The notes below the pieces were generated by a model, which was not told the DNA's origin, ran no database searches, and worked only from the letters and a program-made list of their open reading frames with translations. DNA of 64,000 nt from Pseudomonas vanderleydeniana (GTDB lineage Bacteria; Pseudomonadota; Gammaproteobacteria; Pseudomonadales; Pseudomonadaceae), in assembly GCF_014268755.2 (NCBI RefSeq), contig NZ_CP077093.1, positions 1,724,001 through 1,788,000 of the forward strand, written 5' to 3'. Made by a program: the position numbers and the translations under genes. Shown here piece after piece: positions 28,719 through 45,212 of this stretch (the first letter of the stretch is position 1; each line of letters begins with the position of its first letter).

Positions 28719-28754
28719 CGGTTTGTTATGAACCCCAGGGCGGGGGCCTTACCT

Positions 28755-28884
28755 GTGGCGAGTGGGCTTACCCATGTTCGGCTGCGAAGCAGCCGTGAAC
28801 CGTTGACCACCGTTTACCTGGCATACCGCGCTCGCAGGCTTTGGGGGCGCTTTGCGCCCCAACGCGGGCAAGCCCGCTCGCCAC
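28755..28884. repeat. REPIN copy A1
   Basis: This 130-base REP doublet begins GTGGCGAG and ends CTCGCCAC in inverted orientation, with an internal GGCTGCGAAGCAGCC palindrome. It is the first of three tandem copies spaced 261 bases apart. Confidence 0.85.
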
Positions 28885-29015
28885 GGAGGGGCAGTGCCCA
28901 GGCGGTACTCGGTTGGGTAGGGCGACCGCCGCGGCCAAGCCCAACCGGGCCAGCCCGCTGCTGATCAGCCGCTCGGCGCGCAAGCGAAGTGACAACCCGG
29001 ATAGGGCTTGTACCT
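28885..29015 (-). pseudogene. Decayed copy of an MFS-gene 3' end (spacer 1)
   Basis: This spacer between REPINs resembles, on the minus strand, the end of the adjacent DHA2 transporter gene. It encodes GLAAAVALPNRV, where the intact gene has GLAAAIAMPNRV, and is preceded by a LISSGL/LISAGV-like pair. It is nearly identical to the second spacer but clearly diverged from the intact gene end. Confidence 0.65.
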
Positions 29016-29145
29016 GTGGCGAGTGGGCTTGCCCACGTTCGGCTGCGAAGCAGCCGTGAACCGTTGACCACCGTTTACCTGGCATACCGTGCTCGCAGGC
29101 TTTGGGGGCGCCGTGCGCCCCAGCGCGGGCAAGCCCGCTCGCCAC
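29016..29145. repeat. REPIN copy A2
   Basis: This is a second 130-base copy, 261 bases after A1, nearly identical to it. Both inverted ends are present (GTGGCGAGTGGGCTTGCCC and GGGCAAGCCCGCTCGCCAC). Confidence 0.85.
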
Positions 29146-29276
29146 GGAGGGGCAGTGCCCAGGCGGTACTCGGTTGGGTAGGGCGACCGCCGCGGCCAAG
29201 CCCAACCGGGGCAGTCCGCTGCTGATCAGCCGCTCGGCGCGCAAGCGAAGTGACAACCCGGATAGGGCCTGTACCT
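29146..29276 (-). pseudogene. Decayed copy of an MFS-gene 3' end (spacer 2)
   Basis: This has the same composition as spacer 1 with only a few differences (for example CCGGGGCAGTCC against CCGGGCCAGCCC). The 261-base period is a multiple of three, so the copies stay in one reading frame. Confidence 0.65.
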
Positions 29277-29405
29277 GTGGCGAGTGGGCTTGCCCACGTT
29301 CGGCTGCGAAGCAGCCGTGAACCGTTGACCACTGTTTACCTGGCATACCGCGCTCGCAGGCTTTGGGGCGCCGTGCGCCCCAGCGCGGGCAAGCCCGCTC
29401 GCCAC
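29277..29405. repeat. REPIN copy A3
   Basis: This is a third copy (129 bases), ending four bases before the stop codon of the DHA2 transporter gene. The next unit after it is the real gene end instead of a spacer. Confidence 0.85.
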
Positions 29406-29409
29406 GGGG

Positions 29410-30927
29410 TCAGCGGGCTTTGTCTTCCCGGCCACGCAGTACCCGGTTGGGCATGGCGATGGCAGCGGCCAGGCCCAGCAGGGCGACGCCTGCGCTGATC
29501 AGCAGCAGGTGGCGGAAGGTCAGCAGCAGTTCGGCCCGCAGGGTTTCCTGGGCCGGCCCCGTGGCCGCGTTGAGACCATCGAGCAGGGCGTTGCCCGAGT
29601 GGCCCTCGCCGAGCACCGCGCCGCTGGCCAGGTGAGTCAGCCCCGAGTCCTGCACCAGGGCCAGCAGCAGGGCCGACATCAGGGCCACGCCGACGGCACC
29701 GCCGAGCGAGCGGAACAGGTTGGTGGTGCTGGTCGCGACGCCGATATCGCGCTGCTCCACCGAGTTCTGCGTGCCCACCAGCGAAGTCGGGAATTGCAGG
29801 CCGCCGGCGATACCGCACAGCAACATGAACAGGCTGCTCAGCAACACCGACTGGGGAGGCGTGAAGGCCATGCCGACGATGGACAGTGGCATCAGCAGCG
29901 CGCCACTGAGGATCAACGGCTTGTAGTAGCCGGTCACCGAGGTCATGCGCCCGGCGAAGTAGGCGCCCATCGGCAGGCCCATCGCCAGCGGCAGCAGGTG
30001 CAGCGCCGCACTGTCGGCCCCGGCTCCGGTCACGCTCTGGAAGCGCAGCGGCATCAGCACGGTCAGGGAGATCGCCTGGAAGCTGGTGAAGAAGATCGTG
30101 CACCAGCACAGCACGGCATTGCGGTTGACGAACAGGTGCATTGGCAGCAGCGGCTCGACCGTGCGTCGCTCATGCAGGACGAACAGCGTCAGGCCCACCA
30201 CCGCCGTGGCCAGCAACCCGAGCACGTCGCTGTCGTTCCAGTGATAGCCCTGGCCGATCCGGGTGATGCCCAGCAGCAGGGCCGTCAGGCCGATGACCAT
30301 CAGTACGGTACCGAGGTAGTCGATGACCGGCTTGCGCTGCGGCACCGGCAGCCCGACCAGCACGCGGTGGGCGACCCACCAGGCCGTCAGCCCGAGCGGC
30401 AGGTTGATCAGGAACACCCAGCGCCACGACAGGTATTCGGTCATGTAGCCGCCCAGCACCGGGCCGGCGACGCTGGCCAGCGCGTACATGCTGCTGAAAT
30501 AGCCCTGGTAGCGACCGCGTTCGCGCGGTGGCACGACATCACCGATGATCGCCTGGCTGACCGAGACCATGCCACCGGCCCCGATGCCCTGGATGATCCG
30601 TGCCAGGACCAGCTGCTCCATGCTCTGGGCCAGGCCGCAGAACAGCGAGGCCAGGGTGAACAGGCCCATGCCGAACAGCATCAGCCGACGGCGGCCATAG
30701 AGGTCGCCGAGCTTGCCGTAGATCGGTACGGCTACCGTCATGGCGACCATGTAACCGGAGATCACCCAGGCCAGCAGGCCGACGTCCTTGAACTGGGCGG
30801 AGATGGCCGGCATCGAGACCGCGACGATGGTCTGGTCGAGGGCGCCGAGGAAAATCGCCATCATCAGGGCGATCAGTATGCTGCGAATCGCCGGCTTCGT
30901 CTGGCCGGGCTGATTGAGGTTGGTCAC
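29410..30927 (-). CDS. DHA2-family MFS drug exporter (EmrB/QacA type)
   Basis: This is a 505-residue major-facilitator exporter of the fourteen-helix DHA2 branch. Typical elements are FLGALDQTIVAVSMPAI in helix 1, GKLGDLYGRRRLMLFG in loop 2-3, and the antiporter motif around ARIIQGIGAGGMVSVSQAII followed by GPVLGGYMTEYLSWRWVFLI. The final helix (ISAGVALLGLAAAIAMPNRV) is the sequence that reappears, decayed, in the tandem repeats just downstream. It lies 74 bases after the pobA stop on the same strand. Substrates are probably drugs or toxic organics, but no specific one is indicated. Confidence 0.88.
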   Translation of the reverse strand: MTNLNQPGQTKPAIRSILIALMMAIFLGALDQTIVAVSMPAISAQFKDVGLLAWVISGYMVAMTVAVPIYGKLGDLYGRRRLMLFGMGLFTLASLFCGLAQSMEQLVLARIIQGIGAGGMVSVSQAIIGDVVPPRERGRYQGYFSSMYALASVAGPVLGGYMTEYLSWRWVFLINLPLGLTAWWVAHRVLVGLPVPQRKPVIDYLGTVLMVIGLTALLLGITRIGQGYHWNDSDVLGLLATAVVGLTLFVLHERRTVEPLLPMHLFVNRNAVLCWCTIFFTSFQAISLTVLMPLRFQSVTGAGADSAALHLLPLAMGLPMGAYFAGRMTSVTGYYKPLILSGALLMPLSIVGMAFTPPQSVLLSSLFMLLCGIAGGLQFPTSLVGTQNSVEQRDIGVATSTTNLFRSLGGAVGVALMSALLLALVQDSGLTHLASGAVLGEGHSGNALLDGLNAATGPAQETLRAELLLTFRHLLLISAGVALLGLAAAIAMPNRVLRGREDKAR

Positions 30928-43110: not shown

Positions 43111-43218
43111 GGTTCGCGGGTTCCGCAGGGGTATCGGGGGATCGCTAGTGTGCTTTGCGTGGCGGATAAAGGCGATAGGGCGTTTGCGTGGTGCCCTCCG
43201 ATGCTGGGCATATCGCCG

Positions 43219-43348
43219 GTGGCGAGCGGGCTTGCCCACGTTCGACCGCGACGCGGTCGCAATCTGGTCATGCAGGGTTACCTGGCGGACCGCGGAGTCG
43301 GTCGTTGGGGCCGCTGCGCAGCCCAGCGGGGGCAAGCCCCCTCGCCAC
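43219..43348. repeat. REPIN copy B1
   Basis: This 130-base REP doublet has GTGGCGAGCGGGCTTGCCC at one end and GGGGGCAAGCCCCCTCGCCAC at the other, with an internal CGACCGCGACGCGGTCG palindrome. It is the first of four copies. Confidence 0.88.
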
Positions 43349-43418
43349 CTCGGATTTCCTGTCCTCCAGAAATGACTAAGCCCGGCCTGAGCCGGGCTGT
43401 GATGCCATCTGGAAAGCC

Positions 43419-43498
43419 TTAGCTGATTGCAGCGGCACCAGGAGTCTTGTCGTAACCGTCGGAGGCTACCGCGTTGGCGCCTGGGGTCTTGTCGTAGC
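43419..43498 (-). pseudogene. Fragment 1 of the repeat-protein gene 3' end
   Basis: This encodes the last about 25 codons of the 14-residue-repeat protein (...YDKTPGANAVASDGYDKT... to the stop, TAA here) without a start. It is part of a roughly 293-base duplicated unit. Confidence 0.8.
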
Positions 43499-43511
43499 TG
43501 GGCACATCCCG

Positions 43512-43641
43512 GTGGCGAGCGGGCTTGCCCGCGTTCGACCGCGACGCGGTCGCAATCTGGTCATGCGGGGTTACCTGGCGGACCGCGGAGTCGGTCGTTG
43601 GGGCCGCTGCGCAGCCCAGCGGGGGCAAGCCCCCTCGCCAC
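43512..43641. repeat. REPIN copy B2
   Basis: This is a 130-base copy nearly identical to B1, 293 bases further on. Confidence 0.88.
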
Positions 43642-43712
43642 CTCGGATTTCCTGTCCTCCAGAAATGACTAAGCCCGGCCTAAAGCCGGGCTGTGATGCC
43701 ATCTGGAAAGCC

Positions 43713-43792
43713 TCAGCTGATTGCAGCGGCACCAGGAGTCTTGTCGTAACCGTCGGAGGCTACCGCGTTGGCGCCTGGGGTCTTGTCGTAGC
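43713..43792 (-). pseudogene. Fragment 2 of the repeat-protein gene 3' end
   Basis: This is a second copy of the terminal coding segment, 294 bases from the first, again ending at a stop codon (TGA) and lacking a start. Confidence 0.8.
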
Positions 43793-43805
43793 TGGGTACA
43801 TCCCG

Positions 43806-43935
43806 GTGGCGAGCGGGCTTGCCCGCGTTCGACCGCGACGCGGTCGCAATCTGGTCATGCAGGGTTACCTGGCGGACCGCGGAGTCGGTCGTTGGGGCCG
43901 CTGCGCAGCCCAGCGGGGGCAAGCCCCCTCGCCAC
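43806..43935. repeat. REPIN copy B3
   Basis: This is a third 130-base copy, 294 bases after B2. Confidence 0.88.
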
Positions 43936-44006
43936 CTCGGATTTCCTGTCCTCCAGAAATGACTAAGCCCGGCCTAAAGCCGGGCTGTGATGCCATCTGG
44001 AAAGCC

Positions 44007-44043
44007 TCAGCTGATTGCAGCGGCACCAGGAGTCTTGTCGTAG
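44007..44043 (-). pseudogene. Fragment 3 of the repeat-protein gene 3' end (short)
   Basis: This copy keeps only the last unit of the coding repeat (YDKTPGAAAIS plus stop). It has lost one 42-base repeat relative to fragments 1 and 2, so this duplication unit is about 252 bases. Confidence 0.75.
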
Positions 44044-44057
44044 CTGGGCACATCCCG

Positions 44058-44187
44058 GTGGCGAGCGGGCTTGCCCGCGTTCGACCGCGACGCGGTCGCA
44101 ATCTGGTCATGCGGGGTTACCTGGCGGACCGCGGAGTCGGTCGTTGGGGCCGCTGCGCAGCCCAGCGGGGGCAAGCCCCCTCGCCAC
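44058..44187. repeat. REPIN copy B4
   Basis: This fourth 130-base copy lies next to the intact gene. A hairpin AGCCCGGC...GCCGGGCT (44218-44237) separates it from the stop codon, as in the other units (43379, 43672 and 43966). Confidence 0.88.
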
Positions 44188-44257
44188 CTCGGATTTCCTG
44201 TCCTCCAGAAATGACTAAGCCCGGCCTGAGCCGGGCTGTGATGCCATCTGGAAAGCC

Positions 44258-44824
44258 TCAGCTGATTGCAGCGGCACCTGGAGTCTTGTCGTAACCGTCG
44301 GAGGCTACCGCGTTGGCGCCTGGAGTCTTGTCGTAGCCGTCAGCGGCGATGGCATTGGCACCAGGAGTCTTGTCGTAGCCGTCAGCGGCGACAGCGTTGG
44401 CGCCCGGGGTCTTGTCGTAGCCGTCAGCGGCGACAGCGTTGGCGCCCGGGGTCTTGTCGTAGCCGTCAGCGGCGATGGCATTGGCACCAGGAGTCTTGTC
44501 GTAGCCGTCAGCGGCGACAGCATTGGCACCAGGAGTCTTGTCGTAACCGTCAGCAGCGATCGCGTTGGCACCAGGAGTCTTGTCATAGCCGTCAGCGGCG
44601 ACAGCGTTGGCACCCGGGGTCTTGTCGTAGCCGTCAGCGGCGACAGCATTCGCACCTGGGGTTTTGTCGTAGCCGTCAGCGGCGACAGCATTCGCACCTG
44701 GGGTTTTGTCGTAACCGTCGGCAGCGACGCGATAGGCACCTGGGGTGTGGCTGGAACCATCGGCGGCGTAGGTGTTGGCGGCCAGTACGGAGAGGGTCAG
44801 GGCGAGGATCAGTTTGGTTTTCAT
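44258..44824 (-). CDS. Secreted protein of twelve 14-residue repeats, unknown function
   Basis: This is a 188-residue protein. A signal peptide (MKTKLILALTLSVLAANTYA) is followed by a degenerate unit (DGSSHTPGAYRVAA, about residues 22-35). Ten near-identical units DGYDKTPGANAVAA follow (36-175, Val/Ile variation at one position), and a final shortened unit DGYDKTPGAAAIS. The 42-base DNA units differ at silent positions, so the protein sequence is conserved while the DNA drifts. GGAG lies nine bases before the ATG. I recognise no family. The repeat is small, acidic-basic alternating and Gly/Pro-containing. The downstream array contains three copies of its 3' end. Confidence 0.85.
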   Translation of the reverse strand: MKTKLILALTLSVLAANTYAADGSSHTPGAYRVAADGYDKTPGANAVAADGYDKTPGANAVAADGYDKTPGANAVAADGYDKTPGANAIAADGYDKTPGANAVAADGYDKTPGANAIAADGYDKTPGANAVAADGYDKTPGANAVAADGYDKTPGANAIAADGYDKTPGANAVASDGYDKTPGAAAIS

Positions 44825-45212
44825 GGTGGTTGCTCCAGTCGGGTGTTCGTTTTGTTCAGTGGGTGTGGAAGTCATACTACGCTCGTTTATTCGATTAAAA
44901 AGCGCAAATAAGTGCTTAAATTAATCGTATAAATCGATGTATTGTGCGGCGCGATCAAATGGCGGTCACCGGATGCCCGAGGGCAGGCGCGCAAATCGAT
45001 TGGGCGTAGGGTCAGGATGGAGGATGGGAATTAAGTCGCTATTAATTCCGGGCTTGCACGAAATGCAGGAGGGCTCTGTAGGAGCCGGCTTGCTGGCGAT
45101 TGCGGTGTATCAGTCGGCATTTACATCGACTGGCACACCGCAATCGCTAGCAAACCGGCTCCCACTCAAGAGCAATGCCGGTCCCGCAATCGGGAACCGG
45201 CAGAAGGGGTAA
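44825..45212. other. Promoter region of the repeat-protein gene and a REP hairpin
   Basis: There is an AT-rich stretch (44882-44945) directly upstream of the repeat-protein gene that must hold its promoter. No gene is supported. A large hairpin with GGAGCCGGCTTGCTGGCGAT-type arms occupies 45081-45162, just beyond the kgtP stop. Confidence 0.6.
45081..45162. repeat. REP-type inverted repeat after kgtP
   Basis: Near-perfect arms (GGAGCCGG...CCGGCTCC, continuing through GCGATTGCGGTGT and ACACCGCAATCGC) flank a short loop. Likely transcript end of the permease gene. Confidence 0.75.

Follow-up and report, generated by a model that had tools for sequence, protein, structure and literature searches.

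In enterobacteria, recombination that joins two distant repetitive extragenic palindromic (REP) sequences duplicates kilobases of DNA. Tandem clusters of REP doublets forming hairpins (REPINs) were described in Pseudomonas fluorescens SBW25 in 2011 (Bertels and Rainey, PMC3116915); the passages of that paper on clusters count 16 ordered tandem clusters 'including the flanking sequences', give the cluster unit as f1-REPIN-f2, place three clusters each beside one of three REP-associated Y1 transposases (RAYTs), and infer 'a second mechanism' for cluster formation. For REPs of the GTAG families, tandem reiteration together with flanking DNA of variable length, and many tandem repeats in some Pseudomonas genomes, are stated in general terms in a passage of a later account (BMC Genomics 2013, PMC3733652). 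Here, a tandem array of REPINs and gene 3' ends, referred to as array B, was analysed in a 64,000-nucleotide (nt) stretch of the Pseudomonas vanderleydeniana chromosome (NZ_CP077093.1, positions 1,724,001 to 1,788,000, forward strand), the whole of which is called the window. Array B is a clear example of the repeat cluster already described in pseudomonads and not a new system.

Structure of array B

Array B (window positions 43203–44257) consists of four REPINs, each 130 nt long between motif edges, with the 3' end of the adjacent repeat-protein gene present three times in between. The REPIN starts are spaced 293, 294 and 252 nt apart, and the unit alignment shows that unit 3 has one 42-nt coding repeat fewer; apart from that, the units are distinguished by a handful of substitutions and by one base inserted or deleted in the loop of the hairpin. 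Both the coordinates and the unit alignment agree with an earlier reading made from the letters alone (the sequence-only reading), which had described the same four REPINs, three gene-end fragments, periods and missing 42-base repeat. Its unit order of REPIN, spacer, GC hairpin and gene end also held, but the unit had been drawn too narrowly, as about 16 nt outside the REPIN (43203–43218 in unit 1) belong to it as well. On the plus strand, the order is a flank of about 16 nt, REPIN, spacer, GC hairpin and gene-end fragment. The features are as follows, with the strand given where one was assigned.

43203–43218, left flank f1 of unit 1 (GCTGGGCA...), outside the REPIN and recurring at each junction
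43219–43348, REPIN 1
43379–43398, GC hairpin AGCCCGGC..GCCGGGCT, copy 1, a presumed terminator unconfirmed by the scan
43419–43496, minus strand, captured gene 3'-end fragment 1, stop codon TAA
43512–43641, REPIN 2
43672–43692, GC hairpin copy 2
43713–43790, minus strand, captured gene 3'-end fragment 2, stop codon TGA
43806–43935, REPIN 3
43966–43986, GC hairpin copy 3
44007–44042, minus strand, captured gene 3'-end fragment 3, one 42-nt repeat shorter
44058–44187, REPIN 4, adjoining the intact gene
44218–44237, GC hairpin copy 4, the native one
44258–44824, minus strand, intact repeat-protein gene of 188 amino acids (aa), source of the captured ends

The gene-end fragments start inside a 42-nt repeat and retain the stop codon, and the intact gene follows the three intervening copies of GC hairpin plus gene 3' end, its own 3' end being 71 nt from a REPIN. 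The flanks f1 and f2 measure about 15–16 nt and about 150 nt, respectively. In the array B region the longest class of exact repeats reaches 150 nt or more, whereas 200 mononucleotide shuffles gave no more than 12 nt, which excludes chance as the source of the array; Tandem Repeats Finder gave scores of 1622 and 991. The paired REPs in array B are inverted and 111 nt apart, as expected of a REPIN, and REPIN 2 folds into one long hairpin (−48.8 kcal/mol, z −4.8). The REP is dispersed at high copy number, with 197 forward and 201 reverse matches in the genome at up to two mismatches and none for a control pattern. REPINs within array B are 98–99% alike, compared with at most 78% identity for matches of at least 110 nt elsewhere in the genome.

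The GC hairpin is present in all eight alignment rows (two window copies and six relatives). It has no clear T-run, and the terminator scan made no call on it; across array B, no terminator-like or promoter-like site was called and no Rfam match reached the gathering score. The captured gene-end fragments probably have no function of their own.

Junctions and variant mosaic

At the array B junction, the gene sequence ending ...GTCGTA/GC (GTCTTGTCGTA of the coding repeat) is joined to GCTGGGCA..., the sequence to the left of REPIN 1, with about 2 nt shared between the two. Because the three inner junctions are identical save for one base, the array was probably founded by one illegitimate event, with later copies arising through exchange of units. 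Variants are also shuffled between units: at columns 70 and 186 of the unit alignment, all four combinations occur across the four units, a distribution that needs either exchange or repeated mutation.

The array B site in related strains

The site was located in relatives through the neighbouring flavin-reductase-like gene (named by eye), and 15 relatives were examined: 13 of 20 fetched loci with a recognised gene, together with two strains of P. fuscovaginae. The latter are the closest species-named matches (98% and 96% protein identity), with DNA identity mostly 88–92% in the longer matches. P. fuscovaginae SE-1 (locus L121) carries a single REPIN, which, when aligned together with the flanking sequence, matches each of the four window units at 84–86%, and P. 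fuscovaginae IRRI 6609 (L120) has no REPIN at the site. None of the 13 relatives with a recognised gene holds a REPIN array there. One REPIN lies beside the gene in genomes G006 and G070 and one shorter REP pair in G039; no REPIN was found at the site in G044, G037 or G061. Many of these relatives, including SE-1 and IRRI 6609, are draft assemblies in which arrays may collapse; G061 consists of one contig. An order of empty site, one REPIN and array is the simplest reading, though not a proven one.

A second array in the window

The sequence-only reading had proposed that the same amplification took place at 28.76 kb of the window with a different gene. A second array with a common layout does lie there (array A, 28744–29407), but it comprises three REPINs with two spacers, has a decayed gene-end copy and differs in age from array B.

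28755–28884, array A REPIN 1
28885–29015, minus strand, array A spacer 1, copied from the end of the MFS-transporter gene (gene type by eye) and decayed
29016–29145, array A REPIN 2
29146–29276, minus strand, array A spacer 2, 98% identical to spacer 1
29277–29405, array A REPIN 3, adjoining the intact MFS-like gene at 29410–30927 (minus strand)

The array A spacer matches the adjacent gene end at 79% over the best 76 columns and at 64% over 112 columns. As the gene-end copy has decayed and the spacers are nearly identical to each other, the copy is old and the present units were recently re-expanded or homogenized. Arrays A and B therefore share a layout and not a history or age, array A being an older, re-expanded array and not a twin of array B. 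A closer paralogue was considered as the source of the spacer and set aside, with none among the matches listed in this genome. At locus A, one REPIN is present in SE-1; both flanks were matched with no REPIN match in IRRI 6609, P. gingeri D8001, G044, G070 and G061, and only the gene side was matched in G006 and G037.

With array A as probe, and with both strands counted and 40 candidates scored in each genome, 9 matches were obtained in IRRI 6609 (G342) versus 76 in SE-1 (G343). The REPIN load seems to differ strongly between these two strains of P. fuscovaginae.

Recurrence of REPIN arrays and gene-end capture

This chromosome contains at least 13 REPIN arrays with 37 REPINs, 2 of the arrays in the window and 11 in 10 of 20 fetched loci, in which genes were called by open frame and third-position GC only. 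The end of a neighbouring gene is partly contained in the spacer in 6 of the 13 (A, B, L043, L045 by 14 nt, L047 and L049), and a gene 3' end lies within about 200 nt in 12 of the 13; at L046a, it is the 3' end of the Y1 gene itself that faces the array. Unit lengths fall in the narrow range of 221–305 nt, with spacers of 91–174 nt. With units of this length and gene 3' ends nearby, capture of gene ends is as expected.

Within arrays A, L043 and L049, the spacers are 97–98% alike, yet they differ by 12–21% from the native gene end in the best local alignments. Decay relative to the parent gene alongside homogeneity inside arrays, together with the mosaic in array B, suggests that the units exchanged repeatedly once an illegitimate event had duplicated them in tandem.

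Restriction of such arrays to one strain, which would have counted against the sequence-only reading, does not hold as far as tested, as an array with captured gene ends is present in Pseudomonas genome G005 (L112, 2434–3721). Four 93-nt REPINs of another family recur there at a period of 322 nt beside an intact sigma-54-type regulator gene, whose last 66 codons stand in three copies between them. These fragments sit in 104-codon open frames, which would encode the C-terminal end of the regulator alone. In all, nine more arrays were scored in other genomes among 14 loci chosen for adjacent REPINs; the other five loci (L238, L247, L249, L250 and L251) had no scorable array. A census of the adjacent-REPIN pattern gave matches in at least 6 of 296 genomes, this one included, a lower bound resting on an exact pattern, one REP family and spacers of roughly 76–136 nt. 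Among 80 named loci (965 kb), 10 arrays had a period of at least 100 nt; six have the period and position of the coding-repeat gene, and REP motifs were recognized in the remaining four, by pattern in L141, L150 and L197 and by eye in L153. A single gene-end probe was also run against 298 genomes; the matches listed for this genome covered only two of its four copies, so that the probe is unfit for counting and was used to find relatives.

In this chromosome, L048 (1668–2022) reads spacer-REPIN-spacer-REPIN-spacer, with a near-full spacer copy on both sides of the array, as if an outer REPIN had been lost. L049 (1916–3035) has four REPINs at a period of 305 nt with gene-end copies, and even the outermost left flank looks (by eye) like an inner section of the gene in question, which suggests that duplication occurred in several rounds.

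Association with palindromes and the RAYT gene

The sequence-only reading tied the amplification to the REPIN, and the recurrence of arrays at REPINs here and elsewhere upholds this. As a control, sixty evenly spaced 20-kb stretches were searched (1.2 Mb, 17% of the chromosome, with 2,500 masked bases in the first 40). Four arrays with a period of at least 60 nt were found: one coding repeat and one low-complexity tract (both by eye) and two arrays of another palindrome, GTTCCCACGCTCCGCGTGGGAA (L066, 11778–12395, periods 150/298; L074, 18069–18672, period 124). Apart from the low-complexity tract, no intergenic array in the control was free of palindromes. The link of arrays to palindromic repeats is supported by these results, but not as a property of REPINs alone, given the second palindrome family on the same chromosome. 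Since long-period intergenic arrays accompany palindromes and not only the REP family that flanks the Y1 gene, an effect of hairpins is favoured over a RAYT-specific reaction.

A RAYT gene elsewhere in the genome, which the sequence-only reading had recommended looking for, was found: the genome has one Y1_Tnp gene (PF01797, above cut-off; G000:C1:3171780-3172094). This Y1/RAYT-type gene (L046, 1783–3192) has a tandem REPIN pair on each side, of the same REP family as the arrays, an arrangement also described beside the RAYTs of SBW25. Its motif MPDHFHWLF is one that we take to be HUH-like. One to four Y1_Tnp genes were found in each of the 12 other genomes tested (12 of 12), and the presence of the gene hence gives no contrast between genomes and does not discriminate.

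The positions of unit junctions relative to REPIN edges were compared by a Kolmogorov–Smirnov test that was devised after part of the data had been seen and for which 12 of 22 arrays were usable. No significant concentration at REPIN edges was found in these 12 arrays (one-sided p = 0.076, two-sided p = 0.15). Distances were entered manually for all 12, with midpoints where flanks gap or overlap and 14 for array B. Arrays with less than 80% of the spacer accounted for by the flanks were left out (A, L041, L043, L044, L046b, L239, L241, L243 and L244), as was L048, in which both flanks match the whole spacer; L047 was retained on a gapped match. A rule of template switching just past the REPIN hairpin, drawn from arrays A, B and G005, in which one end of the unit lies about 11–16 nt beyond the REPIN, was dropped when the distances spread to 62 nt with more arrays.

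The repeat-protein gene and its upstream region

The product of the repeat-protein gene begins with what looks by eye like a signal peptide and has about eleven 14-aa repeats (DGYDKTPGANAVAA); searches against Pfam and NCBIfam gave no family above cut-off. The number of 39- or 42-nt repeats in the gene also varies among relatives. Upstream of the gene, at 45078–45165 of the window, lies a different REP-type inverted repeat (GTAGGAGCCGGCTTGC...) with 39-nt arms that are 87% complementary.

Proposed origin of array B

The best explanation, which we consider probable, is insertion of a REPIN followed by illegitimate tandem duplication and unequal exchange, driven by the hairpin and with the gene end as a passenger. 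A REPIN would first have inserted just downstream of the repeat-protein gene, a step consistent with the relatives that have one copy or none. The stretch from the last repeats of the gene, across the GC hairpin and REPIN to about 16 nt beyond, would then have undergone an illegitimate tandem duplication that required almost no homology, as the short overlap at the junction indicates. Unequal homologous recombination or slippage between the near-identical units may finally have produced four REPINs, shuffled the variants seen in the mosaic and dropped one 42-nt repeat. The link to REPINs is most likely the hairpin, which would stall or mis-align replication and so make local duplication likely; a dedicated RAYT reaction is possible but would not be needed. 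The closeness of the REPIN to the gene 3' end and the spacer lengths in this genome would make the gene end a passenger.

Several observations weigh against this history. The four-combination test involves two sites only, and recurrent mutation could explain its outcome. The control stretches held 17 REPINs and no REPIN array, and the rate of arrays per REPIN consequently rests on the targeted search. Spacers of three of the 13 arrays (L041, L044 and L046b) match neither outer flank significantly, and these three show no sign of simple duplication. The array A spacer is 64–65% identical to the gene ends of this genome, SE-1 and IRRI 6609 alike; being about equally far from all three, it may stem from a first duplication that predates their split, or it may have come from elsewhere. 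At locus B, the SE-1 contig begins inside the gene and could represent a collapsed array, and in both G006 and G070 the lone REPIN departs from the window REPINs within the hairpin and may have been inserted separately.

Of the alternatives, the one that survives best is direct action of the RAYT, which would cut single-stranded DNA at REP hairpins and, through read-through cuts or re-joining at the same REPIN, copy the element with one flank. The sequence-only reading had named slippage or RAYT-related strand exchange at the REPIN hairpins as a plausible path. The REPIN pairs on both sides of the single Y1 gene fit such a reaction, as do the Y1_Tnp genes of all the other genomes tested and the six scorable units of 12 that end 0–14 nt from the REPIN (B, L042, L045, L046a, L245 and L246). 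The other six end 28–62 nt away, leaving the junctions without significant concentration at REPIN edges; a Y1 gene in every genome tested is uninformative, and tandem arrays on this chromosome are also formed by another palindrome family. On these grounds the proposal is regarded as unlikely.

Selection for the array itself, with hairpins and REPINs serving as a reinforced 3' end or expression tuner, or shielding the flavin-reductase-like gene from read-through, is improbable. Each unit does repeat the GC hairpin present in every alignment row, but the array occurs in none of the 15 relatives examined at the locus, the scans and Rfam yielded no candidate regulatory site, and arrays also stand beside other genes. 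Still less credence is given to an assembly artefact, a possibility that the sequence-only reading itself had raised and that tandem repeats, commonly troublesome for assembly, make natural to consider: the genome stands as one contig (7,026,924 bases), independent examples exist in other genomes, and the units differ by single-nucleotide polymorphisms (SNPs) and the 42-nt indel in a mosaic pattern. As far as tested, SNP differences inside a single 7.03-Mb contig indicate that the copies are genuine. Repeated independent insertion of REPINs at one spot can practically be dismissed, contradicted as it is by the same hairpin, gene-end copy and flank that accompany every REPIN and by the far greater likeness of the array B REPINs to one another than to others in the genome.

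Hairpin-driven duplication with later exchange may also apply more widely. We put forward only tentatively, as a possibility somewhat short of an even chance, that palindromic repeats, and REPINs above all, seed short tandem amplifications that copy and then homogenize neighbouring gene 3' ends across species, REP families and another palindrome family, and are a general source of partial gene copies.

Relation to known systems

The related strains make stages of a cluster visible, namely an empty site, one REPIN and an array. The captured gene end can be used as a clock, as comparison of the copies with the still-constrained gene allows the first duplication to be dated apart from later homogenization, and the origin of REPIN clusters, by RAYT action or by hairpin-driven replication error, becomes testable in a laboratory strain.

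Array B shares REP-associated tandem duplication with the enterobacterial REP–REP duplications; it differs in that its junction falls in no REP and in its short units, 221–305 nt in this genome. The closest counterpart is the array in G005, which likewise has four REPINs and three gene 3'-end copies beside an intact gene, but differs in its REP family, its gene (the sigma-54-type regulator), its shorter REPIN and the roughly 200 nt of coding sequence captured. The reiterated REPs of the GTAG family are covered by a general statement that, in the passage concerned, is given without gene-end cases or single-copy relatives (PMC3733652). With the ordered clusters of SBW25, array B has in common near-identical tandem REPINs that carry the flanks f1 and f2; gene 3' ends and decay combined with homogeneity within arrays, as seen here, are not mentioned in the passages of that paper on clusters (PMC3116915). 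No account of gene-end capture in REPIN arrays, or of decay with in-array homogeneity, was found in the titles, abstract beginnings and passages of the open-licence literature searched. Recurrent gene-end capture and homogenization are the modest new points that array B and its counterparts add to the REPIN clusters already described.
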